Of a DNA stretch of 54,259 bases, positions 20,139 through 51,488 are shown in pieces (within the stretch, counting starts at the first letter, position 1; every line of letters begins with the position of its first letter). Made by a program: the position numbers and the translations under genes. The notes beneath the pieces were generated by a model. The model did no database searches and had not been told where the DNA came from. It was given only the letters and a program-made list of their open reading frames with translations. Source of the stretch: a virus; the IMG/VR virus record IMGVR_UViG_3300010401_000011, positions 1-54,259 of that record. One strand, written 5' to 3'.

Positions 20139-21425
20139 ATGTCGGACGTCACGTTCGCGACCAATTTCCTCAACATCTCTTATGTTGACGGCGATCTAAT
20201 TCATCAGGCGTCAGTACGCGCCAACCCCTCGATCAAGCTCTTCACCATCAAGGAAGCCGGCGGCTCAGCCGTGGACTCCCGGTTCATGTTGCGCGGCGCT
20301 GCCGGCATGAGCGGCAACCTCACCGACGCGCAAGCCATCGCGGCTCAGAACAAGAACGGCCGCCACTACAGCTGGAACGTCCCGTTCGGTAAGACCCGCG
20401 GATCTTTCCGGATCCCCTACGAGGACATCATGGCCTCGAAGCTCGACGAGGCCGCCGAAGGCAAGGCCCTCGAGATCGAGATGGAGAAGGGCGTGGCCGA
20501 GTGCGGGAGCAAGCTCGTGCAGTTGCTCTTCGGTCGCTCGGGTCTCGCGGGCGGGCTCGGCGTCTACACGGAAGCGGCTTCCGGGGACTTCCCGACGTTT
20601 GCCATCCGCTTCACGGACGGTTCGGACGCGCGCAACTTCCAGCCCGGTGACAACATCGTCATCGCAGCGGGCACGGGCGAGAGCGCTCAGAGCCTGGTCG
20701 GGGACGTCGGCTACGTGCTCGATGCGGATGTCGAGGACGGCTTCGTCCGCGTTGCAGGTCTCTCCGATCCGGACACGGCGGGCAACCCCGGCGGCTGGGT
20801 CACGGGCACGACCTACTACGTGTTCAACCTCGGCCTGCACGGCAACGGCGCTCAGTCGGATGTCATCATCCCGATCGAGGCGTACCTGCCCGCGTCCCGC
20901 GCCAACGACACGTTCCTCGGCGTAGCCCGCTCCGACTCGTCCTCGCTCTCGGGCGCGCGCCTGAGCACGGCGGAAGAGACCGGCAGCATCGCGACCAGGG
21001 CCAAGCGGCTCATCACCAAGATGCGCGGCCGCTACACGGACATTGCCAAGATGGCCAACAAGGTCGTGCTCAACTCGGAAGACTTCGGCACGTGTGACGA
21101 GGATCTGAACGCGCAAGTCGTTCGCTCTCCCGCCATGACCACCGAGAGCGGCTACGAGGCGATGACCATCAACACCGCCAACGGCAAGACGGAGCTCATC
21201 AGTGAGCCCTATAAGAACAAGGGCTCGGGCTTCGTTCTGTCGCCGTCCTCGCTCGTGCTCTATAGCCAGCTGGGCAAGGGCCTGTTGCTGGACTTGGTCC
21301 GGCACAACGGCAACGTGACGCGGTTGATGGAGGGCTCGAACGATCTCGAGGTCCGCACCTTCTCCGCCCTGGCCAACACCATCGGAGCTCCTTTCGCCCA
21401 CGGCCGTTTCGCAACGACCGGCTGA
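20139..21425 (+). CDS. Major capsid protein
   Basis: A 428-residue protein that forms the icosahedral shell. It carries the features of the HK97-like phage capsid group seen in podoviruses: an N-terminal arm, an E-loop region rich in Gly/Asn with RHYSWNVPFGKTRGSFRI, and a long helix (ALEIEMEKGVAECGSKLVQL) followed by beta segments with FNLGLHG. GGAG lies ten bases before the ATG. It has its own upstream gap, consistent with strong separate expression, and is followed by a decoration-like protein. Assignment rests on size, composition, context and resemblance to podoviral capsids. Confidence 0.82.
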   Translation: MSDVTFATNFLNISYVDGDLIHQASVRANPSIKLFTIKEAGGSAVDSRFMLRGAAGMSGNLTDAQAIAAQNKNGRHYSWNVPFGKTRGSFRIPYEDIMASKLDEAAEGKALEIEMEKGVAECGSKLVQLLFGRSGLAGGLGVYTEAASGDFPTFAIRFTDGSDARNFQPGDNIVIAAGTGESAQSLVGDVGYVLDADVEDGFVRVAGLSDPDTAGNPGGWVTGTTYYVFNLGLHGNGAQSDVIIPIEAYLPASRANDTFLGVARSDSSSLSGARLSTAEETGSIATRAKRLITKMRGRYTDIAKMANKVVLNSEDFGTCDEDLNAQVVRSPAMTTESGYEAMTINTANGKTELISEPYKNKGSGFVLSPSSLVLYSQLGKGLLLDLVRHNGNVTRLMEGSNDLEVRTFSALANTIGAPFAHGRFATTG

Positions 21426-29033: not shown

Positions 29034-29623
29034 CGCCCGAGGCCGTGCGCGCGTTCCAGAAGGCCCATCTCAACCACCTCGGCCGCCCGCTGAAAGACGA
29101 CGGGGAGCTCGGCCCGGAAACGCGCTGGGCTCTCGACGCCGATACGCTCAGCCCGCACCGGCGCGGCATCGTCCGTATCGCCCAAGCCTTCATCGGGCTC
29201 GAGGAACACCCGCCCGGGAGCAACTCCGATCCGGCCGGCACCATCCGAGACTGGCTCACGCACGTGGGCGCTCATCCGGGCGTTCCGTGGTGTGCGGCGT
29301 TTGCCAGCCACTGTCTCGGCACCGTCAGGATAGGCGGCGCGCAAGCCCTGGGTCGGCACTTCCCGGCCACGCTCAGCCCCTACCCGGGGGATATCCTGTG
29401 GTTTCCGACCGACGCCATCCACGGCCATTGCGGCATCGTCACGGGCTTGACCCTGAGCGAGGTCATGAGCATCGAGGGCAATTGCCTGAACGCCGTGCGG
29501 TGCGTGCGCCGGCAGCGCGACAAGGTCCGTTTTGCACGCGTCCTCGATGAGACGGTAGGAGTCTGCCCGGGAGTCGTTCCGAGCGTGCCGTGGGCCACTT
29601 CCGGCGCGGGAGGGACGCGGTGA
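29030..29623 (+). CDS. Endolysin: peptidoglycan-binding domain plus CHAP-like amidase/peptidase
   Basis: A 197-residue lysis enzyme. Residues 1-40 match a peptidoglycan-binding type domain (TPEAVRAFQKAHL...GELGPETRWALDADT). Residues about 45-195 show a CHAP/NlpC-P60-like catalytic domain: VPWCAAFASHCLG with catalytic-type Cys88, PGDILWF, and HGHCGIVTG with His133, followed by SIEGN. It would cut peptide or amide bonds in peptidoglycan at the end of infection. The ATG overlaps the previous stop. Confidence 0.85.
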   Translation: MTPEAVRAFQKAHLNHLGRPLKDDGELGPETRWALDADTLSPHRRGIVRIAQAFIGLEEHPPGSNSDPAGTIRDWLTHVGAHPGVPWCAAFASHCLGTVRIGGAQALGRHFPATLSPYPGDILWFPTDAIHGHCGIVTGLTLSEVMSIEGNCLNAVRCVRRQRDKVRFARVLDETVGVCPGVVPSVPWATSGAGGTR

Positions 29624-29865
29624 TTGGCCCGATCGTGCGCGGCCTGGTGGCGCTCATCGGCTGGATCCGCACCGGCACGGAGGCGGCCGTGGCCATCGAA
29701 GAGATTGCCGAAGAGGTGACCGGCCATAGCGCGCGGCCGCCGCCGTTACCGGACCGTTACAGCGAGGCGCCCGTGCCGCTCACGGCCAAGGACGTGGAAC
29801 GGCAACGGGACCTGGCTCGGAAGGCGGCGAGGGCGTTTCCGGGGCCGCCGCCGCGGAAGCGCTAG
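29620..29865 (+). CDS. Small protein at the end of the lysis block, possible spanin or holin partner
   Basis: An 81-residue protein starting at GTG (GTGA overlap with the endolysin). A hydrophobic helix (residues about 2-17, IGPIVRGLVALIGWI) is followed by an acidic helix and a proline/basic tail. It could be a membrane-linked lysis component; no lipobox was seen. Stop TAG lies in a CTAG shared with the opposite-strand gene. Confidence 0.5.
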   Translation: MIGPIVRGLVALIGWIRTGTEAAVAIEEIAEEVTGHSARPPPLPDRYSEAPVPLTAKDVERQRDLARKAARAFPGPPPRKR

Positions 29866-30287
29866 ACTTTCAGGATCATGACCCCGCTCCGTGGCCCGTA
29901 AGTCACGTTCTTGCGCGCGGTCATATCCGGGAAAATGCATGATGTCTTGCCCGCCACGGCCCGATCGCGCTCCGGGTCGAGCGCTTCCGTCACGGTCATC
30001 CACTCGTAGCCAAAGCACGCCGTGAACACCTGGCCGTCATCGAACGCATAGCTGAAATCGGTCGTGCGACTATCCTCCCACGGCCAGGGCCACCCCTGCT
30101 CGGGCCTCGTCCCGTCATCGCGGTGTGCCAGTCGCTTGTCGACCAGCGCCTCGAACTGCTCCCGTGTCGTCGCCGTCGCCAGTTCGTGTTTCGTCAGGAT
30201 GGTCTCCGGGTGTCCGTCCCACGCCACGCTCCCGAGCCAACGCGCGTCCGTGCCCCGGCCTATGTAGAAGTCCGCTCTCGTTCCCAT
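29862..30287 (-). CDS. Conserved phage protein (MGTRADFY-type)
   Basis: A 141-residue protein, last gene of the leftward operon. The N-terminus MGTRADFYIGRGTDARWLGS and the following SVAWDGHPE resemble a small uncharacterised phage family. It meets the late operon tail to tail: stop codons of both strands overlap in one CTAG. No function known. Confidence 0.7.
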   Translation of the reverse strand: MGTRADFYIGRGTDARWLGSVAWDGHPETILTKHELATATTREQFEALVDKRLAHRDDGTRPEQGWPWPWEDSRTTDFSYAFDDGQVFTACFGYEWMTVTEALDPERDRAVAGKTSCIFPDMTARKNVTYGPRSGVMILKV

Positions 30288-30517
30288 TGTTCATTCCCTT
30301 TCGCGCACGCGGCGCACTTGGACCAGTTGTCGACGCCGCCCGCAAAGCCGCCCGTGCTCCACTGTGCCGGCGCCTTCCACTCCCCGCACCCGGTGCACTT
30401 TCGGAGCGGCACGCGGCCCCGGAGTTCCAGGCGATGGACGAAGCCGCGGGCGTCCGTATCGTAGCGCTCCGGGCAGCGCTCGCACACGTGGGCGGCGTCG
30501 TGCAGGGGGCAGGTCAT
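30260..30517 (-). CDS. Small zinc-ribbon-like protein
   Basis: An 85-residue protein starting at the ATG that overlaps the upstream stop. Cysteines occur as CPLHDAAHVCERC, KCTGCGEWK and KCAACAKG, i.e. three CxxC-type pairs, strongly suggesting structural zinc sites. Overlaps the next gene by 28 bases. Possible nucleic-acid binding; function unknown. Confidence 0.6.
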   Translation of the reverse strand: MTCPLHDAAHVCERCPERYDTDARGFVHRLELRGRVPLRKCTGCGEWKAPAQWSTGGFAGGVDNWSKCAACAKGNEQWERERTST

Positions 30518-30732
30518 GACCTGGACTTTGCCTTCTCGGCAGCGAGCGCCAGGAACGCATCGACCGTTGCCGTGGTCCGCACGATGACGTTGACCTCGTC
30601 CTCCGTGACCTCGCCCCGGACTTGGCGCTTGGCTAGGTCCTCTGCCCATGCGTCGACCTTCTCGGCGTGCTCGCGCGTCATCAGGCCGCTCTTTACGGCG
30701 CGTTCGAGATCGGGTGGTAGCTTGCGGCTCAT
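30514..30732 (-). CDS. Small helical protein
   Basis: A 72-residue protein starting at ATG 30732 (ATGA with upstream gene). Mostly helical and charged, with a central RGEVTEDEVNVIVRTTATV. No family recognised. A longer in-frame start at 30765 lies inside the upstream gene. Confidence 0.55.
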   Translation of the reverse strand: MSRKLPPDLERAVKSGLMTREHAEKVDAWAEDLAKRQVRGEVTEDEVNVIVRTTATVDAFLALAAEKAKSRS

Positions 30733-30974
30733 GACCGATGCATCCCGCCCGGGCAGCACTCGCATTGCGGGCCCTTGCTCATGAACTCGCCGAGTTGCTC
30801 CGGGGTGAAATGGGCCACCTCCATCTCATGGCGCGAGCACCAGACCTGGATACCATCGCGTGTGAGCCCGATCCGGAACCGGGAATACTTGCGCGGGGAC
30901 TGGCGGTGAGCGCTGGCCTCACCCGCGCACCGGCGGCACTCGACGTAACTGTGTATGCGTTCGACGGGTGGCAT
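30729..30974 (-). CDS. Small hypothetical protein with Cys/His
   Basis: An 81-residue protein containing YVECRRCAG near the N-terminus and CECCPGGM near the C-terminus, possibly binding a metal. Its stop and start codons overlap both neighbours. No known family. Confidence 0.6.
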   Translation of the reverse strand: MPPVERIHSYVECRRCAGEASAHRQSPRKYSRFRIGLTRDGIQVWCSRHEMEVAHFTPEQLGEFMSKGPQCECCPGGMHRS

Positions 30975-31351
30975 CAGTTGGCTCCCTTGCTCACATAAGG
31001 AAGATCGATGCCCTTGAGCAGCAGCCCCTCGATCAACCGGTGCCGTTGGCGCCAGATGTTACTCGCGTTCGTGATGCGGGTCAGCTCGGCACGGGACATC
31101 AACTTTTGCCGGGCAGTGAACGCGGAAAAGGCCGCCAGGAACCTTTCGCCATCCGCCTCGCTATCGAGCCGGGCAAAGTTGTAGATGAACTCCTTACCAC
31201 CGTGTCTGAGGGCAACCACGGCATAACGACCGGGCGGGTCGCCGTTGACCACGAGGGGCGTGCCGATGAACACCTCCTCCGGCTCGAAGCCGAGGTTGGT
31301 GAGAATGTTGTGTGCCGCGTAGGCCTCGTGCACGAGTTGCTTGGTACGCAT
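30974..31351 (-). CDS. Hypothetical protein
   Basis: A 125-residue protein starting at ATG 31351 (the longer frame from 31402 would cover the preceding gene). A LTNLGFEPEEVFIG...NFARLDSEADGERFL pattern suggests a small alpha/beta fold. Shares bases with both neighbours. No family assigned. Confidence 0.6.
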   Translation of the reverse strand: MRTKQLVHEAYAAHNILTNLGFEPEEVFIGTPLVVNGDPPGRYAVVALRHGGKEFIYNFARLDSEADGERFLAAFSAFTARQKLMSRAELTRITNASNIWRQRHRLIEGLLLKGIDLPYVSKGAN

Positions 31352-31602
31352 CAGCAATCCTCGGGCTTGGCATCCCAGAGCAGGCGCGCCATGAGCCAGC
31401 AATCAGCCGGGCCAACCAGGGCCCCTGCGTAGAGGGCAATGGCCGCTTGCCGAATGAACGCGATGCGGTCCGCGCCAAACATCTTGGTCATGTGCACGGA
31501 GTCGGCGCCGGCCTTGCGAGCTTCAGCCAGCATCGAGTCGAGTTCCGCCTGCGAATGGGTAACGTCCACGTGGTGCGGGTCATGCCGGGCGTCGCGCGTC
31601 AT
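31351..31602 (-). CDS. Small hypothetical protein
   Basis: An 83-residue helical protein with start at ATG 31602, overlapping the upstream stop. HDPHHVDVTHS near the N-terminus is His-rich. A longer start at 31644 is possible but would overlap the upstream gene. No family recognised. Confidence 0.55.
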   Translation of the reverse strand: MTRDARHDPHHVDVTHSQAELDSMLAEARKAGADSVHMTKMFGADRIAFIRQAAIALYAGALVGPADCWLMARLLWDAKPEDC

Positions 31603-31835
31603 GGCTTCACCTCGCGCTCGGGCCAGCCGAAGCCGAACGACCAAGCCTCGCGCTCGGCAGCGGTGTGTGCCCGGCTGAGTCCGTGCTGATTGAACGGCTC
31701 CGGATCGATGCAGAAGTCATCGCAGACGGTCCGCACGACATGAGCCGCGATGGCGCGGACCTTCCACTCCACCGGCTTGCCGTCGACCGCGGCGTGAAAG
31801 GCCTCGTCCAGGGGCTTGGTCGCAACGATGGTCAT
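31599..31835 (-). CDS. Small hypothetical protein
   Basis: A 78-residue protein with ATG 31835 overlapping the previous TGA. Ends with the motif AAEREAWSFGFGWPEREV. No family recognised, but it belongs to the coupled leftward operon. Confidence 0.55.
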   Translation of the reverse strand: MTIVATKPLDEAFHAAVDGKPVEWKVRAIAAHVVRTVCDDFCIDPEPFNQHGLSRAHTAAEREAWSFGFGWPEREVKP

Positions 31836-32065
31836 AACCCGTCGCCCTCCACGCGCGTATCCGGTCCCATGAGCGGGCTCAGTTCCCGCATGATGTCCTG
31901 CTCGGTCTCACCCGCCATGAGCAGCACCGTGCCGACGAGGCCCGTGAACGCCTTTAGCTCGACCGAGATGGGCCGCCCCGCGAGCAGCATCTCGGTGTTC
32001 TTGCGGCTCAGCCCAAGGATGAGCAGGGGCTTGCCGTCGCCACCCTTCGCGCTCGCTTTAATCAT
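31832..32065 (-). CDS. Small conserved phage-type protein
   Basis: A 77-residue protein starting at ATG 32065 (GKPLLILGLSRKNTEMLLAG follows). The LILGLSxxN...L.AG.PI pattern and a closing GETEQDIMRELSP are shared by small uncharacterised phage proteins. No known function. The long upstream frame to 32221 is rejected as it overlaps another gene. Confidence 0.6.
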   Translation of the reverse strand: MIKASAKGGDGKPLLILGLSRKNTEMLLAGRPISVELKAFTGLVGTVLLMAGETEQDIMRELSPLMGPDTRVEGDGL

Positions 32066-32841
32066 GGCCGTACGAACTCCTTTCCCGCATCGCCACCGGG
32101 CCGCCGCCGTCCCGATTGCGGGTGCCGATACCAGCCCTCGGGCTCCCCGTGACCGTTCCAGGCGATGGCCGCGCGCCAGCCAGCGTCCACGCAGCCGGGC
32201 ACGTCGCTCGGGTAGTCCCACACGTCATCCATGTCCGGCGCCCCGATCGCGCCTATCCCAAGCCGGACCGAGCCGAAGCTTAGCGGGAGGAGGAAAACGC
32301 CCCGTCCGTCGTCGAGGTAACGGACCCAGAGATAGTCGTTTCCCGCGGCCCGTGCGCGCGCACCGAAGCCCTTGGCGTCCCGGAGTTCGTCATCGCCGAC
32401 CCCGTAGAGGAAAGCCGAGCCCGGATTATCGCCGTGACGGCCCGAGTCCGCACCATCGCCTCGACCGCCTCGTTCATGTCCCGAATGCTCGCTCGACTCG
32501 CTTTCATCTCCCCCCCTGTCAATGGGTAGCGGCTGCTGGGTGTGCTCGAACCGGTACCCGAAGAGCCAGCCCGCGCGCGTGTCATCGGTCGGCGCGAAGT
32601 TGTCCGCCACGTGTTCGACTTGATCCGGGTGGGCCTCGTTCACGTGCCGGCGCAAGGTATAGCCCGTGACCGCGGCCGCCATCCACGCGGGCGAGATGGG
32701 CGCGTCCCCGTTCAGCATGACCAGGACCATGGCATCGAAGAACTCGGTTTCGTCCGGTGACGGGGCGTGGTCCGTTGCCTTGGCAGGATCGTGGTCCTCG
32801 CCGCACTGGCAACGGTCGGGTGTTTTGGTGGTGTCAGCCAT
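32062..32841 (-). CDS. Hypothetical protein with conserved C-terminal phage motif
   Basis: A 259-residue protein. Early CQCGEDHDP suggests a small metal site; residues about 110-145 are a Gly/Ser/Asp/His-rich linker; the C-terminal 45 residues (GWRAAIAWNGHGEPEGWYRH and SGRRRPGGD) match a short conserved module found at the end of several unnamed phage proteins. No enzymatic motif seen. Confidence 0.65.
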   Translation of the reverse strand: MADTTKTPDRCQCGEDHDPAKATDHAPSPDETEFFDAMVLVMLNGDAPISPAWMAAAVTGYTLRRHVNEAHPDQVEHVADNFAPTDDTRAGWLFGYRFEHTQQPLPIDRGGDESESSEHSGHERGGRGDGADSGRHGDNPGSAFLYGVGDDELRDAKGFGARARAAGNDYLWVRYLDDGRGVFLLPLSFGSVRLGIGAIGAPDMDDVWDYPSDVPGCVDAGWRAAIAWNGHGEPEGWYRHPQSGRRRPGGDAGKEFVRP

Positions 32842-33112
32842 TGAGAATGTCCTTCACGGCCTGCTCGTAGTCGAACTCTTCGATATAGCGCCCGCGCTCG
32901 AACGCCGCCTCGATGGCCATGAGCTTCTCGCTTGCACGCTCGGCCTTGAGCAGCGATAGCGCGCACTCTTTCCAGTCCCGGTCCTCGGACTCTAGCTCGC
33001 TTACCCGGTGGTTGGCCCTGAGCAGTTCGTGGCTGAGCTCGGCGTTGCGGTGCATGAGCGCGGCGTGCTTCTCTTCGAGTTCGGTGTTGTAGGCGGTGTG
33101 CTCGGTGGTCAT
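32834..33112 (-). CDS. Small coiled-coil protein
   Basis: A 92-residue protein with ATG 33112. Residues about 10-80 have heptads of Leu with Glu/Arg/His (ELEEKHAALMHRNAELSHEL), a likely coiled coil. It overlaps the next gene by 8 bases. The upstream in-frame start at 33232 would overlap another gene. Confidence 0.6.
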   Translation of the reverse strand: MTTEHTAYNTELEEKHAALMHRNAELSHELLRANHRVSELESEDRDWKECALSLLKAERASEKLMAIEAAFERGRYIEEFDYEQAVKDILNG

Positions 33113-33198
33113 AGCTTGCCCTTTCGCAAGTCGGCCTCGATCTGGTCGGCGTCCTTGCGGGTCAGCTTCCAGCCGCGGCCATGGTCGTCCTCGGTCAC
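33109..33198 (-). CDS. Very small coupled ORF (29 residues)
   Basis: A 29-residue frame from GTG at 33198 to TGA at 33109-33111. The start overlaps the stop of the gene upstream (33195) and its stop overlaps the ATG of the gene downstream (33112). The peptide RGWKLTRKDADQIEADLRKG is a helical charged pattern. Dual coupling supports it as a real gene, too short for family assignment. Confidence 0.55.
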   Translation of the reverse strand: MTEDDHGRGWKLTRKDADQIEADLRKGKL

Positions 33199-33542
33199 GC
33201 CCCACCTCCAAACACGTTGCTGAACGCCTCACGCATGGCAGTCACCGAGGCCAGGGCCGCGCTCAGTTGCTCGTGCAAGTGGTCGAGGCCGGCGGCGGGG
33301 CTCGGGTTGCTCACGTGGCCATTGGAACTCGAGCGCCGTGCTTTCTTGCCTAGCTTGCGCGCTTTCTTTTTGGCACCAACTTTGCCCCCCCCGTTCATGC
33401 CGGCGGCTTTCTTCCAAGCGTAGATGCTGTTTTGACTCACGCGGTGTTTCTTCGCCGTCGCCGTTATCGAGGCACTCGCCAACTCGGCCAGGATCGCGGC
33501 CTTCTCGTCGAGGGTGAATGTCTTGTGTCTCTTCGCTGCCAT
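33195..33542 (-). CDS. Transposase-type helix-turn-helix DNA-binding protein
   Basis: A 115-residue protein. Residues about 8-48 (TLDEKAAILAELASASITAT then KKHRVSQNSIYAWKKAAGM) match the OrfA/IS3-type helix-turn-helix, and residues 51-70 are a Lys/Arg-rich arm. There is no transposase catalytic domain or inverted repeats nearby, so it looks like a domesticated DNA binder, perhaps a regulator. GAAAGG lies 12 bases before ATG 33542. Confidence 0.7.
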   Translation of the reverse strand: MAAKRHKTFTLDEKAAILAELASASITATAKKHRVSQNSIYAWKKAAGMNGGGKVGAKKKARKLGKKARRSSSNGHVSNPSPAAGLDHLHEQLSAALASVTAMREAFSNVFGGGA

Positions 33543-33585
33543 TGGTGTTTGCCTTTCGTTCTGTCTGTTCAATGACGTGAGCGGC

Positions 33586-33951
33586 TCACGTCGGCTCGAC
33601 CGGGCTCACGTGCTCGAGCGTGGCGCCGGGCATAAACCCGTCCGGGAAGTATTCGCGCGTGGCCAGGATGAGCGCGTCGTTGCTCTCGCGATAAAACAGG
33701 CACACGTGGGGATGCGTCTCGCGCCCGTCGGTTTCGGCCACGCGCGGGATACAGACGCGCTCCCCGGCGAGCAGGCGCGCGAGCGCTCTTGGGCCGCCCG
33801 AGAAGTCCAAGAACAGCCCCATGTGCGAGACGCCGTTTGCGCCGATGAAGCCAGGGATGGCCACGCGCTCGCCCGCGCGAAGGCGATCCATGAGCGTTCC
33901 CGGCACGAGGCCGATAAAGATCGCGCCCTTATCGTCCATGCCGCGGATCAT
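33586..33951 (-). CDS. Hypothetical protein
   Basis: A 121-residue protein with ATG 33951 overlapping the upstream stop; a second ATG (33939) is also possible. Two similar segments, LMDRLRAGERVAIPGF and ALARLLAGERVCIPRV, suggest an internal duplication of about 50 residues. Function unknown. Confidence 0.6.
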   Translation of the reverse strand: MIRGMDDKGAIFIGLVPGTLMDRLRAGERVAIPGFIGANGVSHMGLFLDFSGGPRALARLLAGERVCIPRVAETDGRETHPHVCLFYRESNDALILATREYFPDGFMPGATLEHVSPVEPT

Positions 33952-34397
33952 GGGCGCGCCGCCTTGCCGTGCTTGAACCAGCCGATCGCGAGCGGCTCCG
34001 CCAACAGCCACAGGTGCCGCATGTTGGCCACGTGCACGAGGTCCCGGTCTCGCGGGTAGATCTCGACCGCGTACCAGTCACCGTGCCCGGTCTCGCGCTT
34101 GCACCGCTGCAGGTCGTCCCATGGGATGCCCTGGTCCCAATGGCCATCACCGCGGATGGTGACGCGGTTGACGCTCAGCCGGCGCACCTCGACGCCGTTC
34201 AACGCGGGCTCACCGTACACGACCGCGAGATAGTGCCGGCTCCGCCACACGGATCGGGGGCGGACCGCTTCCGGTCGGTGAGGCCACTCGCTCTCGGGGA
34301 CCGCTGCCAGGTGCTCGGGCCACGCCGCCGCTTGTTTGCGCATATAGCTTGCCGTTGCTCGGCGTTCGGCTCGGCCTTGTGCGCGGATGTCCGCCAT
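33948..34397 (-). CDS. DUF7694-like phage protein
   Basis: A 149-residue protein with ATG 34397. The block RSVWRSRHYLAVVY, then RLSVNRVTI and GIPWDDLQRCKRETGHGDW followed by YPRDRDLVHVANMRHLWLL matches an uncharacterised phage domain family, DUF7694-like as I recall it. Function unknown. A longer in-frame start at 34607 is rejected because it overlaps the upstream gene. Confidence 0.72.
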   Translation of the reverse strand: MADIRAQGRAERRATASYMRKQAAAWPEHLAAVPESEWPHRPEAVRPRSVWRSRHYLAVVYGEPALNGVEVRRLSVNRVTIRGDGHWDQGIPWDDLQRCKRETGHGDWYAVEIYPRDRDLVHVANMRHLWLLAEPLAIGWFKHGKAARP

Positions 34398-34558
34398 CAC
34401 GTCCCGCCCTTCGAGCGCGCCACCGTCACCCAAACGCCGGGCGCCACTTCGGCAGAGACGTGACCGCCCGTGAACGCTTGGTGCCATCTCAACTGCCGCT
34501 CGACCCAACGCCGCTCGCGTCGTTGGCGCCGATGCCGGGCCTTGGCTGAGCGCCCCAT
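34397..34558 (-). CDS. Small basic protein
   Basis: A 53-residue frame from ATG 34558 to TGA at 34397-34399. The N-terminal half is arginine-rich (KARHRRQRRERRWVERQLRW), suggesting nucleic-acid or membrane binding. Its start shares a base with the stop of the upstream gene and its stop shares a base with the ATG of the downstream gene (TGATG on both sides). Confidence 0.6.
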   Translation of the reverse strand: MGRSAKARHRRQRRERRWVERQLRWHQAFTGGHVSAEVAPGVWVTVARSKGGT

Positions 34559-35448
34559 CAATCCCCCTCACCCGATCGCTTGGTGCGCTCGTAGCTTTCG
34601 AGAGCATCCGGCGGCGCGGGCTCTACTCTCCCGGTCTCTCGCGCTCGGTCACGCACGGTCTCGGTCAGGGTGTAGGCGGGGCGGAGCCGTTCGAGTTGCG
34701 CGTCGAGTGCCTTTTGCGCCGGGTAGGGGCCCTCGCCGTCCTGCCCACGTCCGTGGCATGCATCGGCAAAGCGCTTCGCTGCCCGGTAGAGGACATTGAA
34801 GTCCTTGATCAGCCACTCGTCGGGGGCGCGGGGCGGCGCCGCTACCTGGTGGCGGATGACCTTGGCGCCTTCGCTTAACGCAGGCCCGGCCTCACGCAGG
34901 AGCGCTATCGAGCGCGCGTTGACGGCGTCGGCGTCGGCCAGCCCTTTCTCGGCCAGCTCGAGCGCGCGCAACAGCCGAAGCACGATGCGGCCGACGAAGC
35001 CCTCGGGGGCGGCTATCTCCCTCACGTCGAGCCAATTGGCCGCCATCGCCGCCCATTCGAAGCGCTCGTGCCCGGTCGGATCGCCCTTATCGAGCCCGGA
35101 CTTGTCGAGGTTGAGGAAGTTGCAGCACTCGATGAGTGACGCGAGCGGCCCGCCCTCGTCGAGCCCACACACGAGCGTACCCACGTTGCGGCCCCGCACG
35201 AACACGGTCACGTGCTTGTGCGCGCCGCGTGTCACGAGGCCGACGCTCGAGATGAAGCGCCGGCTCGCTTCCGGGGGCGCCGCGGGCTCGGCCTCCACGT
35301 CCGTCTTGATGTAGATGCCCGAGCGCGTGAGCGTGCCGCACCCGTGGCAGCGCTCGGACGGGCCGCTCGTGACCCGTGGCGAGGGCTTGCCGGGGTTGCG
35401 CTGGTCCCAACAGTCATCGCAGAAGGGGGCGCTTTGCCACTTAGCCAT
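34558..35448 (-). CDS. Hypothetical zinc-ribbon protein
   Basis: A 296-residue protein starting at ATG 35448. Residues about 9-40 contain FCDDCWDQ and RCHGCGTLT, two CxxC pairs separated by about 25 residues, a classic zinc ribbon. The rest is mixed alpha/beta and helical with no known catalytic motif. The largest member of the leftward operon. Upstream in-frame codons to 35577 are rejected. Confidence 0.62.
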   Translation of the reverse strand: MAKWQSAPFCDDCWDQRNPGKPSPRVTSGPSERCHGCGTLTRSGIYIKTDVEAEPAAPPEASRRFISSVGLVTRGAHKHVTVFVRGRNVGTLVCGLDEGGPLASLIECCNFLNLDKSGLDKGDPTGHERFEWAAMAANWLDVREIAAPEGFVGRIVLRLLRALELAEKGLADADAVNARSIALLREAGPALSEGAKVIRHQVAAPPRAPDEWLIKDFNVLYRAAKRFADACHGRGQDGEGPYPAQKALDAQLERLRPAYTLTETVRDRARETGRVEPAPPDALESYERTKRSGEGD

Positions 35449-35713
35449 TGGCCACCTCGAACAAGTGAAACATCTTGGCGCTACCAAGCGTCTGAAACGA
35501 GCCGACGTGACGAGTGACCTCGCCCACGACTTGGCCGGTGCGCGCCAATCGAAAGTGCCGCGGCGCCGAGCGCACACGGGTATTGACCAGAGCCCAGATG
35601 CAGGGCTGGCCGTGCTGCACCTGCACCGCGAGCACTTCGGCCCCCTCGGGCAGTTCGAGGGCGAAGGCGTCGGCGATGGGCACCGGGTACTTGAAGACGC
35701 GGCGGTCCGTCAT
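35441..35713 (-). CDS. DUF7352-like small conserved phage protein
   Basis: A 90-residue protein. The pattern RRVFKYPVPIADAFALELPE, GAEVLAVQVQHGQPCIWALV and later GSFQTLGSAKMFHLFE matches a widespread unknown phage family (DUF7352-like as I recall it). Function unknown. Stop and start overlap both neighbours. Confidence 0.75.
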   Translation of the reverse strand: MTDRRVFKYPVPIADAFALELPEGAEVLAVQVQHGQPCIWALVNTRVRSAPRHFRLARTGQVVGEVTRHVGSFQTLGSAKMFHLFEVANG

Positions 35714-36054
35714 GCTTGCACCGTCCTCTTACCCGGGAGCGACCGCGTCCGGATGGCCCGGACCAGGGCTTGCATCTCGAGCACCTGAGCCCGGAACGCG
35801 GGCGGCAGCGCCTCGATCTCGGCCGTGTCCACGCGCACGAGTGAGAGGGCATCGTCGTATCGGTTGATGCCCCCGCACGCCGTGCACACGCTGAACGCGC
35901 CGGGCTCGGGCTCGCAACCCTTCTCACCGCACGCCACGTCCCGGCGCCGCCCGCAATGACCGCACGTGCTCGCCGCCGTCCTGGTCGTGCTCCCGGTCGC
36001 CATCGCGAAGTCCTTTATGGCGCTGAACGCGGCGCTCCCGTTTTGGTCAGCCAC
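35710..36054 (-). CDS. Zinc-ribbon-like hypothetical protein
   Basis: A 114-residue protein with STCGHCGRRRDVACGEKGC and SVCTACGG, i.e. CxxC pairs typical of zinc ribbons. The C-terminal half is helical. Overlaps the next gene by four bases. Function unknown; possible nucleic-acid binding. Confidence 0.62.
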   Translation of the reverse strand: MADQNGSAAFSAIKDFAMATGSTTRTAASTCGHCGRRRDVACGEKGCEPEPGAFSVCTACGGINRYDDALSLVRVDTAEIEALPPAFRAQVLEMQALVRAIRTRSLPGKRTVQA

Positions 36055-36445
36055 GGCCCACCTCCCGCTTCGGCAAGAGCGCCTCGAGTTCCTCCGGATG
36101 GTTTCTACCGAGCAGGATGAGCGCGGCCACGTACGGCATGAGCGCGTTCAGCATGGCCGCCGTCTCGCGACGACGCTCGGGGCTACCCGTGTCGGGCTCG
36201 GCCAGCGCCGTCCGTGCCGCGCCAAGGAAGAACGGCAGCGACGTGTCCGGCGACGCGAGTCGCGCGGTCATGACGCAACCGGCGCAATTGGCGTTCGAGC
36301 GATGGCCAAGGTCATCGTGGTCAGCGGCAACCCATTTGTGCCCGGGCTCCCACTTACCGGGCACGCCCGGCTTGCCACAGAGCGCGCGCCCTTCGTGAAG
36401 TAGATGCACTATGGCGGTTGGGATCTGCAATGTCGTGTCAGTCAC
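36047..36445 (-). CDS. Hypothetical protein
   Basis: A 132-residue protein with ALCGKPGVPGKW, then CAGC at about residue 55, a possible metal site. The C-terminal part is helical and hydrophobic (MLNALMPYVAALILLG). Overlaps the upstream gene by four bases. Confidence 0.6.
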   Translation of the reverse strand: MTDTTLQIPTAIVHLLHEGRALCGKPGVPGKWEPGHKWVAADHDDLGHRSNANCAGCVMTARLASPDTSLPFFLGAARTALAEPDTGSPERRRETAAMLNALMPYVAALILLGRNHPEELEALLPKREVGRG

Positions 36446-36639
36446 TGGTCGGCCCCTTTCTCTCGTTCAGCGCCCACGCTCACGAACGCGGCGCGCAAAT
36501 CGTGCCAGCGCACCCGGCCGACCTCTGTCGCGCGCAGCCCTTCGCGTACGCGGCGAGCGTAGGACGTGCGGCGCGGAAGATCTATTTCACGACATTTCAC
36601 GGGCGGTTCGAGCTCCGCCTCGTCGCCCGTTACAGCCAC
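36442..36639 (-). CDS. Small hypothetical protein (start uncertain)
   Basis: A 65-residue frame starting at GTG 36639, overlapping the regulator gene by ten bases and overlapping the next ATG at 36445. It has an acidic N-terminus and basic middle (RRTSYARRVREGLR). No family recognised. A longer frame to 36849 shadows the regulator and is rejected. Confidence 0.45.
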   Translation of the reverse strand: MAVTGDEAELEPPVKCREIDLPRRTSYARRVREGLRATEVGRVRWHDLRAAFVSVGAEREKGADQ

Positions 36640-36926
36640 TGCAACCCCGCCTTGGTCACGTCCTGATGCTTGGTGATGACGCCCTTGGTCTTGACCAGGG
36701 TGCAGGGCGTGATCAGGCCCTTCTCTTCGAGGATCCGCATGTGGGTCTGACACCCGTTGCGAGAGGTGAGTTGCATCTCTTCGCTGATCTCGGCGAGCGA
36801 CGGGACGCGGTGCAGGCGGTTTTTCAGACGCGCGAAGGCTCGAAGGCACAGCACCTGGCCTTCCGACGGGATATTCTCGGGGTTCATCCGGGGCAGGGTG
36901 ACGGGGCGTTTCGCAATGGCGTTCAA
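36630..36926 (-). CDS. LexA-like winged helix-turn-helix regulator
   Basis: A 98-residue protein starting at TTG 36926 with AGAGGAG eight bases upstream. Residues about 25-72 (LCLRAFARLKNRLHRVPSLA, then EISEEMQLTSRNGCQTHMRI and LEEKGLI) match the LexA N-terminal winged helix. There is no C-terminal autopeptidase. It is the first gene of the leftward operon, so it probably represses this or the divergent operon and may control lysogeny. A longer ATG start at 36992 lies upstream of the promoter-like hexamer and is less likely. Confidence 0.7.
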   Translation of the reverse strand: MNAIAKRPVTLPRMNPENIPSEGQVLCLRAFARLKNRLHRVPSLAEISEEMQLTSRNGCQTHMRILEEKGLITPCTLVKTKGVITKHQDVTKAGLQWL

Positions 36927-36975
36927 GGCTGGCTCCTCTGGGGGTGAATTGTATCGGGTATGTCCCGCATAGCCT

Positions 36976-36983
36976 CTAGTATA
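36976..36983. promoter_or_regulatory. CTAGTATA half-site overlapping a -10-like hexamer of the leftward operon
   Basis: On the minus strand TATACT (36978-36983) is one mismatch from TATAAT and lies about 50 bases before the regulator start. The same octamer CTAGTATA recurs at 44598-44605 inside a large palindrome. The sharing of this AT-rich octamer in a GC-rich genome suggests a common operator. Confidence 0.4.
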
Positions 36984-37020
36984 CGACGTCATTGCGCTCG
37001 TCCAGGGTCTCGACTAACCC

Positions 37021-37040
37021 GGTGACGATATGCTGTCACC
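37021..37040. promoter_or_regulatory. Palindromic operator candidate in the divergent control region
   Basis: Perfect inverted repeat GGTGAC (37021-37026) and GTCACC (37035-37040) separated by eight bases. Further GTGACC (37094-37099) and GTCACC (37122-37127) half-sites lie downstream, flanking a possible sigma70-like promoter. Likely target of a lysogeny regulator. Confidence 0.45.
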
Positions 37041-37091
37041 CACACTCGTTCCCCCTCGCCCACCAAACTGCCACGCCGCCCCATTTCGGTA

Positions 37092-37127
37092 TTGTGACCT
37101 TAGAACGGTCTCTCTATCAATGTCACC
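37092..37127 (+). promoter_or_regulatory. Possible rightward promoter
   Basis: TTGTGA (37092-37097) and TATCAA (37115-37120) are spaced by 17 bases, four of six matches to each sigma70 hexamer. GTGACC overlaps the -35 and GTCACC lies just after the -10, so the promoter is likely regulated by the half-site binding factor. It reads toward the excisionase-like gene at 37186. Confidence 0.4.
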
Positions 37128-37185
37128 TATTCGGCACGCCTACGTGTCGAGCCGCCGAAGGGACTTGGCGGCGAGAGGACGATGC

Positions 37186-37563
37186 ATGGGGCATGACATG
37201 GGCCGGGACGATGGGGGCATGGCGCAAGAATTGGTGCGCTATTTCGCGCGCTTGGTGGCCGCGGAGTTGCGTGGCGCCGATGTTTCCCTCGTCTCCGGGG
37301 CTACCAGCCCACTGGGCGCCCGCCGCCACAATGCCGCCGTGCGCCGCCGCATCGCCGAGCACGCCGCGGGGGAGCTCCCGATCTCGGGGGCAAGCAAGGT
37401 CGGCAAAACGCACTACCTGACGCAAGAGGCCCTGGCCGAAGAGCTTGGGCGCCCATCGGGCCCGAGCGTCAGCAAGACCAAGCCCCGCGAGCCCTCGCCC
37501 GACGACGACGAGCAGGCCGCGTACAACGCCGTCATGGGCCGCTACCCGGGAGCAAAGCAGTGA
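37186..37563 (+). CDS. Excisionase-like/helix-turn-helix small protein
   Basis: A 125-residue protein starting at ATG 37186 (GAGAGGA seven bases upstream; later ATGs at 37198 and 37219 are possible). The C-terminal LPISGASKVGKTHYLTQEAL then AEELGR pattern resembles the winged helix-turn-helix of excisionases. It overlaps the integrase gene by four bases (GTGA), as recombination directionality factors often do. The N-terminal RYFARLVAAELR region is helical and basic. Confidence 0.5.
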   Translation: MGHDMGRDDGGMAQELVRYFARLVAAELRGADVSLVSGATSPLGARRHNAAVRRRIAEHAAGELPISGASKVGKTHYLTQEALAEELGRPSGPSVSKTKPREPSPDDDEQAAYNAVMGRYPGAKQ

Positions 37564-39152
37564 CGGCCAAGCTCACCAAGGGCGGCGCCAAGGACCGCGT
37601 CCGGCTCGGCGCGGGCGCGCGCACCCCGATCCTGCTCCCGGGCGTGACCAGCCTGACCGTGGCCGAGGATCGGTTCAGCCGGTTGCGGCAAATGGTGACG
37701 GCGCTGGTCGATTCGAAAAAGCAATCGGAGGCACCCCGTATCATTGCCGACGCCGCGCGCGTCGCCAACAACCCGAAGGCCTTCGCGGGCATCGAGCGGG
37801 CCGTCCGGGACCTCTGCACGCGAGAGGGCGCCCTCGACAAGCCCATGACCATGAATGAGCTTTGCCACCTCTACACGAGCGGCGAGCTGCAGCGGCGCTA
37901 CCCCCGGCACGTCGACGTCAAGGGCAAGACGGACGAGACCCGGGAGCTCGAGCGCCGCCGCCTGGCTCTGCTCTGCAAGGTCATCGGAAACATCCCCGTT
38001 GCAGATCTCACCCGGGACGACTGCGAGCGCGCCATGCTCGAGGTGCCGGCGACCGCGAGCAGCGGCTGGCGGCGCTCGCACTCTCAGCCGCTCTTTCACG
38101 TGCTCGATATCGCGTGCCTCAACATGCGGCTCATCGAGGCGAGCCCGCTACCGCGTAGGTGGGCCGACGCGCCCAACGCTCCCGCGATGACGGCCATCCT
38201 ATACCCGAAAGAGGAAGCCCAACTCGCCGCGTGCCCCGACGTCGACATCGACTTCCGGGTGATGTGGGGCGTGCAGATCCGGGAAGGGTTGCGCCCGGGC
38301 GGCGTGGCCTTGCTCCGCCGGGACGAGGTTGACCTCGACTCGGGCACCATCACCCACCGGCACAAGACCAAGTCCTATCGCATGTGGACGCTCGGTGCCG
38401 ACGTGGTGCGGGTGCTCCGGTGGTGGCTCGACTACCGGCCCGATCCCGAGTTCGTGTTCCCGCACGTGGCACGCGGGCACCTGGTCAAGCTGGCGGCGTG
38501 GTTCCGTGAGGCCCTCGTCACGGCGGGCGTCAACCGGCGCGCGCTCCATGCCGAAGCCACGGCGGGCAAGCGCCCGATCCGCGCCCACGATCTCCGGACG
38601 TCGTTCGTCACGGTCGCGTTTGCCGACGGTCGCCCCGAATCTTGGATTTCGGCTCGCACTGGTCATACCACGGCGGCTCAGCTGGCCCGATACAAGCGGG
38701 TTGCCGAATCGCTAGAGGCCCTGGATCTAGGCTGGTTTGCACCGCTCGACGAGGTTTTAGGGGTGGGCTCGGGGGTGGGCCCGATTTGCAAATCCACCGG
38801 GGAAAACCCTATGTCAAAAACACCAGCTTGTTCTTTAAAAGGCACCGAAAAGCGCTCTCGAGCAGCGAAAAGCTCGCTGAAACCACCCTCAGGCGTCCTG
38901 AGCGCGCCTGAGAACCGAGCCCAGGGTGGGGGGGGTGGGCTTTGTGGGCCCGCACCGGAAGCAACGGTCACGGCACTCGACGAGGATAGCCTAACCGACC
39001 TGCTCGCGCTCGCCACCAAAGCCAAGCGTTGGGATCTGGTGGCCAAGGTCGGTGCACAACTCGAGGACATCGAACGGGTCAGGGCCGCCACGGGCAGCCC
39101 CAAGGTCGCGTCCCTCGATGCCGCCCGGGCCAAGCGGGAGCGGACCAAGTGA
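37560..39152 (+). CDS. int: Tyrosine recombinase (integrase) with C-terminal extension
   Basis: A 530-residue site-specific recombinase starting at GTG. The catalytic residues are present: Arg245 (REGLRPGG), Lys269 (HKTK), His343-Asp-Leu-Arg346 (AHDLRTSF), His369 (TGHTTAAQL) and Tyr378 (ARYKR). It would catalyse integration and, with the excisionase, excision. The last 130 residues lie beyond the catalytic tyrosine and are low in conserved features: they hold an AT-richer segment and a palindrome that could be the attachment site. Its extended length is unusual for this family. Confidence 0.92.
   Translation: MTAKLTKGGAKDRVRLGAGARTPILLPGVTSLTVAEDRFSRLRQMVTALVDSKKQSEAPRIIADAARVANNPKAFAGIERAVRDLCTREGALDKPMTMNELCHLYTSGELQRRYPRHVDVKGKTDETRELERRRLALLCKVIGNIPVADLTRDDCERAMLEVPATASSGWRRSHSQPLFHVLDIACLNMRLIEASPLPRRWADAPNAPAMTAILYPKEEAQLAACPDVDIDFRVMWGVQIREGLRPGGVALLRRDEVDLDSGTITHRHKTKSYRMWTLGADVVRVLRWWLDYRPDPEFVFPHVARGHLVKLAAWFREALVTAGVNRRALHAEATAGKRPIRAHDLRTSFVTVAFADGRPESWISARTGHTTAAQLARYKRVAESLEALDLGWFAPLDEVLGVGSGVGPICKSTGENPMSKTPACSLKGTEKRSRAAKSSLKPPSGVLSAPENRAQGGGGGLCGPAPEATVTALDEDSLTDLLALATKAKRWDLVAKVGAQLEDIERVRAATGSPKVASLDAARAKRERTK
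38783..38794. repeat. 12-base palindrome in AT-rich island within integrase extension
   Basis: GATTTGCAAATC is a perfect palindrome, flanked by GGTGG on the left and CCACC on the right, and followed by the AT-rich stretch around 38800-38845. The compositional dip in a GC-rich gene, positioned after the catalytic tyrosine, resembles phage attachment sites located inside int (as in Myxococcus phage Mx8). Confidence 0.35.
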
Positions 39153-43582: not shown

Positions 43583-43920
43583 AGCGCGTCATCATCGAGT
43601 CACCGTTCCGGGGCGAGACGGCCCGAATCTGCGAGCGCAACGAACGCTACCTACGGGCCTGCTTACGGGACAGCCTCTTGCGCGGGGAAGCCCCGTACGC
43701 GAGTCACGCCATCTACACGCTCCCGGGTGTGCTCGAGGACCAGCAACCGAGCGAGCGCGAGTTGGGCATCACGGCCGGCTTCATGTGGCGACCCGCGGCG
43801 GAATTGACCGTGGTGTATGACGACTACGGCATCACCGAGGGCATGCGACGCGGCATCGCTCACGCCAAGGACCTCGGGCAGGCGATCGAGGTGCGCCGGA
43901 TCTGGGAGAAACGAGCATGA
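43579..43920 (+). CDS. DUF7768-like conserved phage protein
   Basis: A 113-residue protein starting at ATG 43579. The pattern MKRVIIESPFRG, then RNERYLRACLRDSLLRGEAP, YASHAIYTLPGVL, RELGITAGFMWRPA, TVVYDDYGITEGMRRGI is a widespread unknown phage family (DUF7768-like as I recall it), with a Rossmann-like fold similar to nucleoside deoxyribosyltransferases. A role in nucleotide metabolism is possible but not shown. Overlaps the methylase gene by four bases. Confidence 0.75.
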   Translation: MKRVIIESPFRGETARICERNERYLRACLRDSLLRGEAPYASHAIYTLPGVLEDQQPSERELGITAGFMWRPAAELTVVYDDYGITEGMRRGIAHAKDLGQAIEVRRIWEKRA

Positions 43921-44519
43921 ACCACCCCGGCTTCATCCCGCGCAACCACCCAAACGCCGTCAAAAAGCGCGGCGTGGACGACACCATCGACGATCGGGAA
44001 ACGCCGCCATGCGTGTTCGATCCGCTGCACACCGAGTTCGGCTTCACCCTGGACGTTGCCGCGAGCGTGCACAACGCCAAGTGCAAGAGCTTCTGCACCC
44101 TCGACGGCACGTTTGCATGGTCCGAATACAACCCGCACCCGGGCGAGGGCTCGTGTTGGGATATGCGCAACGGTCTGCAATTCCCGTGGGGCGGCGAGCG
44201 CGTCTGGTGCAACCCGCCCTTCTCCAAGCTCTCACCCTGGGTGGAGCGGGCATGGAGCGAGCCAGCCCAAGTCGTCTGCATCCTCCTGCCCAACAACCGA
44301 CAAGAGCAGCCTTTCTGGCAGAACATGGTCGAGCCGTTCCGGGACCGTCCGGGCTCGATCCTGACGACTCGGTTCCTACGTAAGCGCCGCCCGTTCCTGC
44401 ACATGGGCGAGGGCATCGGCAACCGGACCAGCAAAAACCCGCCTTTCGGGCTCGTGCTGCTCGTGTGGGACAAGCGAAGCCCGATATCACCCGTCCGCCA
44501 TCCCACCCCGGCACACTGA
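43917..44519 (+). CDS. Dam-like phage N-6-adenine DNA methyltransferase
   Basis: A 200-residue protein of the phage Dam family. Residues about 27-60 show DRETPPCVFDPLHTEFGFTL then DVAASVHNAKC, and the catalytic motif is CNPPFS (Asn99-Pro-Pro-Phe102), the DPPY-like element, followed by VVCILLPNNRQEQPFW. It would methylate adenine in phage DNA, likely protecting it against restriction or affecting gene expression. End of the first part of the right operon. Confidence 0.82.
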   Translation: MNHPGFIPRNHPNAVKKRGVDDTIDDRETPPCVFDPLHTEFGFTLDVAASVHNAKCKSFCTLDGTFAWSEYNPHPGEGSCWDMRNGLQFPWGGERVWCNPPFSKLSPWVERAWSEPAQVVCILLPNNRQEQPFWQNMVEPFRDRPGSILTTRFLRKRRPFLHMGEGIGNRTSKNPPFGLVLLVWDKRSPISPVRHPTPAH

Positions 44520-46568: not shown

Positions 46569-47372
46569 ATGGGCCTCGCACTCGTTCAGCAGCCATCCGC
46601 TCCCGCCCTCACCCCCGAGCCGCTCCGCTTCTCGCGCTTGAAGCGCATGGGTAAGAGCGCCATGCACTACGCCGATGAGACGGCGTGGGAAGAGACGGGG
46701 CCCATGCGCAAGGGCACGGCGCTGCACTCGTTCCTGCTCGGCGGCCGCGCCATCGTCATGTACGAGGGCCGCCGGGACCCGCGCATGGCCGCGTGGCGAG
46801 ACTTCCAGGCCGAGCACGCGGGCAAGGTCATCCTGAGCCCGAAAGAACTCGGCGCGGTCGGTGGCATGCGAAAGAGCCTCGAACGGCACAAGCGCGCGCG
46901 CGAGTTGCTCGATGACGGCGTGCAGGAAAACCGAATCGAGTGGGACCTGGCCGGTCGAGCCTGTGCCGGAACACCGGACGTCATCCGTCCGAAGAACGGT
47001 CGGAAACGCCTGGTGGAGCTCAAGACCGGCAACACGTCCGCGCCGGGCCTGTTCAAACACAAGGCCAAGGGCATGGGCTACCACGCTCAGGTGGCCTGGT
47101 ACGCGGACGGGTGCGAGCGGACCATGAGCTACGAGCCCGGGGCCGTGACGGAGGTGTTCATCGTGGCCGTGGAATCGTCCTCGCCATACCCGGTCACGGT
47201 CTTCCGCGTGTGCGAAAGCATGCTCACGCTCGGCCGCAAACAATACCGCGCTTGGTTCGAGGCGGCCCGCAACTGCGAGCACGCGGATCACTTCCCAGCC
47301 TACGCGGAAAATGACGTAGACTGGGAGGATGAGGAGGGCGACGGGGACGGGCTCGATTGGAGCGACGAGTAA
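46569..47372 (+). CDS. PD-(D/E)XK exonuclease (Cas4/RecE-like)
   Basis: A 267-residue nuclease. The motif series is GTALH (49-53), GTPDVIRP with Asp137, VELKTG with Glu150-Leu-Lys152, and AQVAWYADG with Gln174 and Tyr178. These fit the PDDEXK phage exonuclease family used in single-strand annealing recombination. It would resect DNA ends and, with the upstream protein, mediate recombination. The C-terminal tail is acidic. Confidence 0.82.
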   Translation: MGLALVQQPSAPALTPEPLRFSRLKRMGKSAMHYADETAWEETGPMRKGTALHSFLLGGRAIVMYEGRRDPRMAAWRDFQAEHAGKVILSPKELGAVGGMRKSLERHKRARELLDDGVQENRIEWDLAGRACAGTPDVIRPKNGRKRLVELKTGNTSAPGLFKHKAKGMGYHAQVAWYADGCERTMSYEPGAVTEVFIVAVESSSPYPVTVFRVCESMLTLGRKQYRAWFEAARNCEHADHFPAYAENDVDWEDEEGDGDGLDWSDE

Positions 47373-50011: not shown

Positions 50012-50289
50012 GCTACGCCCGCCGCGGCTACGCCTTCCTCGGGCCCGAATACGCCTCCGACGTCTACGTGTACCATCACACGAGCGGGGACTTCTGTTGC
50101 GACGATTGCCCACGGCTCGGCCACCACTTCGAGCCGACCGCGCTCACCATGGCGGTCCATCTCGTCGACGACCGGGCAGCGGGCTACACCGTCCAGCAAG
50201 ACACCATCGACGAGCTCATCTGGGAGGCGGAAAACAAGGACTGCCCTGGCGAAAAAACCACTCCCGTTTCAGGCGCGCGCGCGAAATGA
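50008..50289 (+). CDS. Small Cys-containing hypothetical protein
   Basis: A 93-residue protein with FCCDDCPRLGHH, which may be a metal site. Helical C-terminal half. It ends the coupled early block. Function unknown. Confidence 0.55.
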   Translation: MSYARRGYAFLGPEYASDVYVYHHTSGDFCCDDCPRLGHHFEPTALTMAVHLVDDRAAGYTVQQDTIDELIWEAENKDCPGEKTTPVSGARAK

Positions 50290-50488
50290 CCCCCCGGCCC
50301 CTCCCGCCTATCCCAAGGACGGGCCCGATCCTGGAACGTCGCACACTTTCTCACGCCACCCGCGTCTAGGAACTTCCCGCGTTCCAAGGCCCGCCCCACC
50401 CCGGCACCCTGAACGCCCGTCTGAAATTGCGCCGCGGCCCCGCCCCGTGCCCTCTACGCGGGCGCAAATATTCCGTTCAGTAAGGGTG
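50290..50488. promoter_or_regulatory. Intergenic gap before the lipoprotein protease gene
   Basis: A 199-base gap with a five-base hairpin (GGAAC 50369-50373 and GTTCC 50381-50385) and an AT-rich stretch just before an AAGGG ribosome site. A weak promoter is likely for the lipoprotein gene. No coding potential was seen. Confidence 0.35.
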
Positions 50489-51237: not shown

Positions 51238-51488
51238 GCGACGACGACGTGCTCCGTGAGGTCAAGCCCGTGACCAGCGATGACGTGCCCAAGGTGCTGC
51301 ACGAGGCGCTCAGCCTGGCCGTGCAGGGCAAGCTCCGGGGCGTGGTGGTGTTCATGTCCTTCCACGGCTCGACTCAGCTCCGGCACGTGCAGGGCGGGCA
51401 CATGAACCTGGCCGAGGTCAGCATCACCGTCGACCACTGGAAGTGGCAGCACTTCCTGAGCGAGCAAGCCGGGTTGGAGCGAGCCTGA
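51234..51488 (+). CDS. Hypothetical protein upstream of the tail nozzle
   Basis: An 84-residue protein starting at GTG 51234. Ser/Asp-rich N-terminus, then KVLHEALSLAVQGKLRGVVV and HVQGGHMNLAEVSI; alpha/beta look. No family recognised. Its stop shares a base with the nozzle ATG (TGATG). Confidence 0.6.
   Translation: MSDDDVLREVKPVTSDDVPKVLHEALSLAVQGKLRGVVVFMSFHGSTQLRHVQGGHMNLAEVSITVDHWKWQHFLSEQAGLERA

Follow-up and report, generated by a model that had tools for sequence, protein, structure and literature searches.

A leftward block of small genes is found at positions 29862 to 36926 of the viral contig IMGVR_UViG_3300010401_000011, whose whole length of 54,259 bases is referred to here as the window. 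The window has a three-part layout, with late genes running rightward to 29865, the block running leftward from 36926 to 29862, and a second rightward arm starting at 37186. Within the block, a gene caller trained on codon usage in the window predicted 19 minus-strand genes, and two more were added by hand (34397 to 34561, 54 amino acids [aa], and 36442 to 36639, 65 aa), for a likely total of 21. The second of these is the least certain gene, as the caller favored an opposite-strand open reading frame at 36430 to 36666 (score, 16). In the 21-gene set, 19 of 20 junctions overlap by 1 to 28 nucleotides (nt) and the remaining one is a 43-nt gap; without both hand-added genes, overlaps were found at 15 of 18 junctions. 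Starts were picked by score and ribosome-binding site (RBS), so individual overlaps are approximate. An earlier reading made from the sequence alone (the original prediction) had described about 20 overlapping minus-strand genes, the largest of about 300 residues, with tiny genes of 29 and 53 residues among them. This description was borne out, with a largest product of 296 aa and a 29-aa gene, and the 53-residue gene probably corresponds to the frame of 54 aa at 34397 to 34561.

The block genes, all on the minus strand, are numbered leftward from gene 1. Four block proteins passed Pfam cut-offs, in agreement with the families that had been proposed: gene 1 (36630 to 36926; 98 aa, TTG start), with a LexA-type DNA-binding domain only (LexA_DNA_bind, PF01726, E = 5e-7); gene 5 (35441 to 35713; 90 aa), a DUF7352 protein (PF24043, E = 2e-22, 79.4 bits against a cut-off of 27); gene 8 (33948 to 34400; up to 150 aa), a DUF7694 protein (PF24746, E = 2e-14, 53.8 bits against a cut-off of 27); and gene 10 (33195 to 33542; 115 aa), a DNA-binding protein of the transposase helix-turn-helix type HTH_Tnp_1 (PF01527, E = 5e-7). 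Of the 20 block proteins scanned, the 16 others matched no Pfam family above cut-off. The 29-aa gene 11 (33109 to 33198; GTG start) was called from the codon model and RBS. At least two CxxC motifs were counted in 4 of 21 block proteins, compared to 0 of 73 genes elsewhere, and the remark that at least four zinc-ribbon-like proteins are encoded here therefore exceeds chance. These are gene 4 (35710 to 36054; 114 aa, two motifs), gene 6 (34558 to 35448; 296 aa, an N-terminal CxxC pair), gene 18 (30729 to 30974; 81 aa, two motifs), and gene 20 (30260 to 30517; 85 aa, three motifs).

The other genes predicted from the codon model were gene 3 (36047 to 36445; 132 aa), gene 9 (33586 to 33951; 121 aa), gene 12 (32834 to 33112; 92 aa), gene 13 (32062 to 32841; 259 aa), gene 14 (31832 to 32065; 77 aa), gene 15 (31599 to 31835; 78 aa), gene 16 (31351 to 31602; 83 aa), gene 17 (30974 to 31351; 125 aa), and gene 19 (30514 to 30732; 72 aa). 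Hand-added gene 7 (34397 to 34561) overlaps both of its neighbors; gene 2 (36442 to 36639), also hand-added, and gene 21 (29862 to 30287; 141 aa) are described below. Searches with the 296-aa protein and with the 125-aa protein of gene 17 returned no viral relative, and no recombination or replication genes were recognized among the block proteins. Most block genes match no family, and ordinary housekeeping roles for most of them, the outcome that would have spoken against the original prediction, were not found.

Slot conservation and gene turnover in related phages

Relatives of the large terminase of the window, with 66 to 77% identity, were present in 10 viral loci. The four long records among these (G001 to G004) were compared in pieces, with 18 relative pieces overall. 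A leftward block occupied the same slot in all four and contained between 10 and 35 genes: 35 called in G001 (29 and, if the record is circular, 6 more across its ends), 10 each in G002 and G003, and 24 in G004, a reversed record in which the block forms two runs parted by one small opposite call. None of the 21 block genes matched these four records, compared to 24 of 43 genes in the late region and 8 of 30 in the right arm. The sole block match over the 18 relative pieces was that of DUF7694, to the partial locus L002, and the DNA of the whole block had no matches in 50,697 phage records. The G001 block encodes RecT (E = 5e-45) and a PDDEXK exonuclease-type protein. A Dam-type methylase is located in the right arm of the window (43917 to 44519) and in the leftward block of G001 (50138 to 50761), and early genes therefore swap between the two arms.

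Some block genes recurred at more distant loci. The DUF7694 profile matched 11 viral loci out of 48 candidate stretches. At one of these loci (L118, IMGVR_UViG_3300049452_000027), as in the window, an integrase gene and a homologue of the gene at 37186 to 37563 diverge from an operon led by a LexA-domain gene. The genes running in that other direction encode an 80-aa LexA_DNA_bind protein (E = 2e-9), a DUF7694 protein (74%), SSB (E = 2e-31), an HTH_Tnp-type protein (E = 1e-4, slightly short of the cut-off), a protein with the same C-terminal domain as that of gene 6 (E = 5e-10), and a weak relative of gene 3 (E = 0.001). Unlike the window block, the L118 operon carries SSB, and most of its small genes are different. 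At a second locus, L119, one protein shares a C-terminal stretch with gene 13 (E = 7e-6). Beyond DUF7694, what recurs of the block in L118 and L119 is limited to parts of three or four genes. Of the 79 loci with either the last gene of the block or DUF7694, two (L033 and L109) carried a second block gene, in both cases DUF7352; for the last gene alone, a second block gene (DUF7352) was present at 1 of 77 loci (L033).

Where DUF7694 and DUF7352 occur in annotated phages, their neighbors include replication or recombination genes. In Gordonia phage Nettuno, DUF7694 is flanked by a DNA methyltransferase on one side and a RepA/helicase loader/RusA group on the other; in Vibrio phage VvAW1, it adjoins DUF1367/DUF1364 genes. 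DUF7352, which was found in 40 phage records, adjoins DUF2800 in a Vibrio phage, with an RNase H-like gene nearby. The structural model of the DUF7694 protein (predicted local distance difference test [pLDDT] score, 82.9) had no Foldseek match in the PDB at 0.001 or better, and many histidine-triad proteins were among the weak rows. A histidine-triad reading was dropped, since the best VIA-align result (Z = 6.8, 81 aligned residues, root mean square deviation [rmsd] of 3.2) fell under the level of relatedness. A full-text search of the library consulted found no paper on DUF7352 or DUF7694.

The divergent control region and the surrounding genome

The LexA match of gene 1 covers 31 of its 98 residues (29.8 bits against the PF01726 cut-off of 23.7). 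Against the NCBIfam lexA model, the protein scored 25.4 bits, far under the cut-off of 111, and the self-cleaving peptidase domain is absent. The proposed LexA-like leader of the block therefore stands with respect to its DNA-binding domain but not as a full LexA-type protein, and it should be unable to cleave itself as LexA does. Gene 1 is separated from the rightward arm by a divergent region of 259 bp (36927 to 37185). This region contains a perfect palindrome, GGTGAC-N8-GTCACC (37021 to 37040), the sole such site in the window, where 0.15 would be expected. In the equivalent gap of L118, GGTGACGATA is present and the full palindrome is absent. The palindrome is a candidate operator and no more. 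An 11-nt inverted repeat adjoining gene 1 was dropped, as a similar frequency is estimated to be expected by chance.

On the far side of the gap, the first gene of the opposite arm (37186 to 37563, plus strand; 125 aa) adjoins the integrase in relatives, from which a role as an excisionase is inferred. It is followed by a tyrosine integrase of 530 aa (37560 to 39152, plus strand; PF00589, E = 2e-12). Gene 2, in the block, aligns colinearly to residues 218 to 253 (E = 4e-4) and 340 to 353 (E = 1e-3) of this integrase. The match skips about 86 integrase residues between the aligned parts as well as the end with the catalytic Tyr, so that the catalytic domain is incomplete, and the product is not recognized by Pfam despite the similarity. 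Compared to the L119 integrase, gene 2 scored 34.7 bits, higher than the 27.3 bits of the best match among 28 control regions in the window. The simplest reading of these alignments is that gene 2 is what is left of an older integrase that ran leftward; its frame is still open, which is compatible with a retained small protein but no proof of one.

The remainder of the right arm includes genes for a MazG-type hydrolase, the Dam-type methylase, a DUF3799 exonuclease-type protein, and Prim-Pol; the recombination-type exonuclease of this arm lies at 46569 to 47372. The large terminase was recognized by phrog_2 (E = 5e-31), and this gene together with the tyrosine integrase implies that the phage is temperate. 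G+C content ranged from 64% to 73% across 2-kb stretches. Bases 1 to 123 are identical to bases 54137 to 54259 (a 123-bp terminal repeat). Because of these identical ends, the contig most likely represents a complete genome of about 54.1 kb, closed and circularly permuted, though it is classed as linear in the collection. A megablast search with the first 25 kb of the window gave no matches.

Further features of the late region and contig ends were recorded. A 428-aa late protein (20139 to 21425), 79 to 81% identical in relatives and with no match in PHROGs, is probably the major capsid protein, judged from its position and conservation. No relative of this protein, its identity being guessed, was found in 306 candidate stretches from 84,980 bacterial and archaeal genomes. 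Another late gene (11986 to 12918) showed a weak GroES-like match (phrog_3188, E = 0.0026). An in-frame TAG (124 to 126) interrupts the gene spanning 51443 to 54259 and continuing at 1 to 738; in G001 to G003 the homologues are intact (1115 aa), with a Glu or Gln codon at this position. Recoding of TAG was rejected, as TAG is the normal stop of 8 of the 93 called genes; read-through, a true split, and an assembly error are all possible.

The MGTRADFY family

Gene 21, whose stop and the end of the last late gene (29620 to 29865, plus strand) overlap, belongs to a conserved family named here MGTRADFY. Relatives were found at 77 viral loci (of 80 candidate viral stretches), on 8 genome contigs (of 62 candidate genome stretches; a Polyangiaceae metagenome-assembled genome [MAG], Frateuria, Bradyrhizobium, Herbaspirillum, and others), in just 4 of 50,697 annotated phage records (two entries for each of two Caulobacter phages), and in 0 of 72,556 plasmids. 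Across 70 members, 16 alignment positions were invariant, with a signature composed of an invariant MGTR-DFY start and a core of WLGS..DGY and WPWPW..S..TDY. Nothing scored above cut-off in Pfam or NCBIfam, and PHROGs gave one marginal match among the 70 members. A full-text search of the library consulted found no paper on the family.

Structure prediction, one of the checks suggested for the block, gave a confident model for gene 21 (pLDDT, 89.6; predicted template modeling score, 0.86) and a model for DUF7694, with no convincing PDB fold match for either. For gene 21, none of 43 Foldseek matches to the PDB (E values up to 10) reached 0.001, and the best VIA-align result (Z = 2.3, 66 aligned residues, rmsd of 5.8) pointed to no convincing solved structure. 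The sole strong match among viral models was protein A0A385ED46 of Caulobacter phage CcrPW (Foldseek E = 6e-11, TM score of 0.77, 32% identity), which is likewise uncharacterized and, unlike the window protein, comes from a 308-kb phage.

Among the 50 of the 77 viral records that were examined, RecT matched in 9 and ERF in 7 (15 records together), and integrases matched in 22. In 8 of the 15 RecT/ERF records, the MGTRADFY gene lay within 4.5 kb on the same strand, compared to 1.1 expected under uniform position and random strand. The 4.5-kb limit was set after the distances had been seen, and early genes cluster anyway, so this proximity is better evidence of an early location than of a joint function. 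On a 7.4-kb Polyangiaceae MAG contig (L110), an MGTRADFY gene (47% identity) occurs with a relative of the DUF3799 protein of the window (31%), a pairing that gives a weak hint as to host group.

Interpretation of the block and comparison with known systems

The block is read, with a probability of roughly 0.7, as the hypervariable early-left arm of a temperate tailed phage. This reading follows from the leftward block in the same slot of the relatives, the complete lack of block genes shared with them, and the plan of L118, which together argue against a single system. It is also supported by the overlaps at 19 of 20 junctions, the integrase directly across the divergent gap, the palindrome within that gap, the RecT and exonuclease genes in the G001 block, and the occurrence of DUF7694, DUF7352, and MGTRADFY genes near replication or recombination genes elsewhere. 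Under this early-arm reading, the control region would drive a polycistronic leftward transcript, with the gene for the LexA-domain winged-helix protein first, and a rightward transcript of the excisionase-like gene and then the integrase. The LexA-domain protein would probably bind the control region and set the balance between the arms. The other small proteins are probably early and would act singly on the DNA metabolism of the phage or its host, on regulation, or in modulating the host, their genes being gained and lost one by one, which would leave the slot conserved and its content not. The patterns in L118, L119, G001, and G003 are read as a recurring divergent integrase/regulator switch with shuffled arms.

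A number of observations weigh against this interpretation. The first leftward gene of G003 had no Pfam match, and the LexA-like gene of G001 is opposite its integrase yet on the rightward side; its match is distant (E = 9e-4, 36% over 56 aa), and its own best Pfam hit is HNH_repeat, below cut-off. Neither the LexA-domain proteins nor the HTH_Tnp-type proteins of the window and L118 could be aligned by BLAST, and in L119 the integrase and DUF7694 share one strand. The palindrome was found by looking, and at least one such site occurred in 13 of 100 shuffles. The sole promoter-like match was at chance level, as were terminators (5 in the data versus 4.6 in shuffles), and no terminator is claimed.

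The original prediction regarded the block as an accessory or host-takeover region and as the likeliest place for an undescribed system. The accessory reading is sustained, in that an accessory or early block does run opposite to its neighbors, beside a regulator-type gene and an integrase, in a hypervariable slot. A single undescribed system found no support in the proposed test of co-occurrence, as the genes do not recur together as a group. That some 20 products work together in one undescribed multigene system, as continuous overlapping genes behind a common leader might suggest, is very improbable, given that close relatives share none of the genes, that L118 and L119 repeat just DUF7694 and fragments, that a second block gene, DUF7352, was seen at just 2 of 79 loci, and that the recurring genes have replication or recombination neighbors. 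A lysogenic-conversion cassette, with expression in the prophage directed by a repressor-type gene of its own, would account for the regulator-type leader, and the slot between late genes and integrase commonly houses such cargo. This explanation appears improbable, as the tight overlaps and a leader divergent from the integrase suit an early arm better and the DUF7694, DUF7352, and MGTRADFY genes adjoin replication or recombination genes elsewhere.

Regions dedicated to host takeover or anti-defense exist in other phages, and an island whose small proteins mostly serve to disable host functions or defense systems, and which is kept for that purpose, would be consistent with the many small unassigned proteins, the four CxxC-rich products, and a fast-changing slot with 0 of 21 genes common to four relatives. 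Such an island is considered unlikely here: the recurring genes sit with replication or recombination genes, and none of the 10 block proteins tried (of 21) matched PADLOC, the models of which mainly cover defense rather than anti-defense. The two explanations overlap, as individual early-arm genes could well have anti-defense roles.

As a whole, the block is best read as one more ordinary hypervariable early-left arm, in the slot between late genes and integrase switch that has the fastest turnover of gene content in this phage group. What it brings out is the conserved MGTRADFY family, which we would call the only undescribed part of the block and the part worth following; with conservation but no useful library model, its function is a testable question. 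A tentative proposal, held at well below even odds, is that MGTRADFY is a widespread undescribed family across phages that differ in size and host, possibly with a new small alpha/beta fold, delivered early, often beside RecT/ERF, and perhaps acting as a recombination accessory or in counter-defense, and that gene 2 may be kept as a small modulator of the integrase.

A full-text search of the library consulted found no paper on LexA-led leftward operons of hypothetical genes in temperate phages. With LexA itself (PF01726), gene 1 shares the DNA-binding domain without the self-cleaving peptidase domain. Among the closest known systems is the early-left (pL-type) arm of lambda-like temperate phages. 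Like that arm, the block is directed leftward, opposite to the late genes, from a control region close to the integrase, and in the relative G001 the likeness extends to RecT and an exonuclease within the arm. Unlike in the lambda-like arm, no peptidase-type repressor was seen in the window block, and both the integrase and the recombination-type exonuclease of the window are carried on the other arm.

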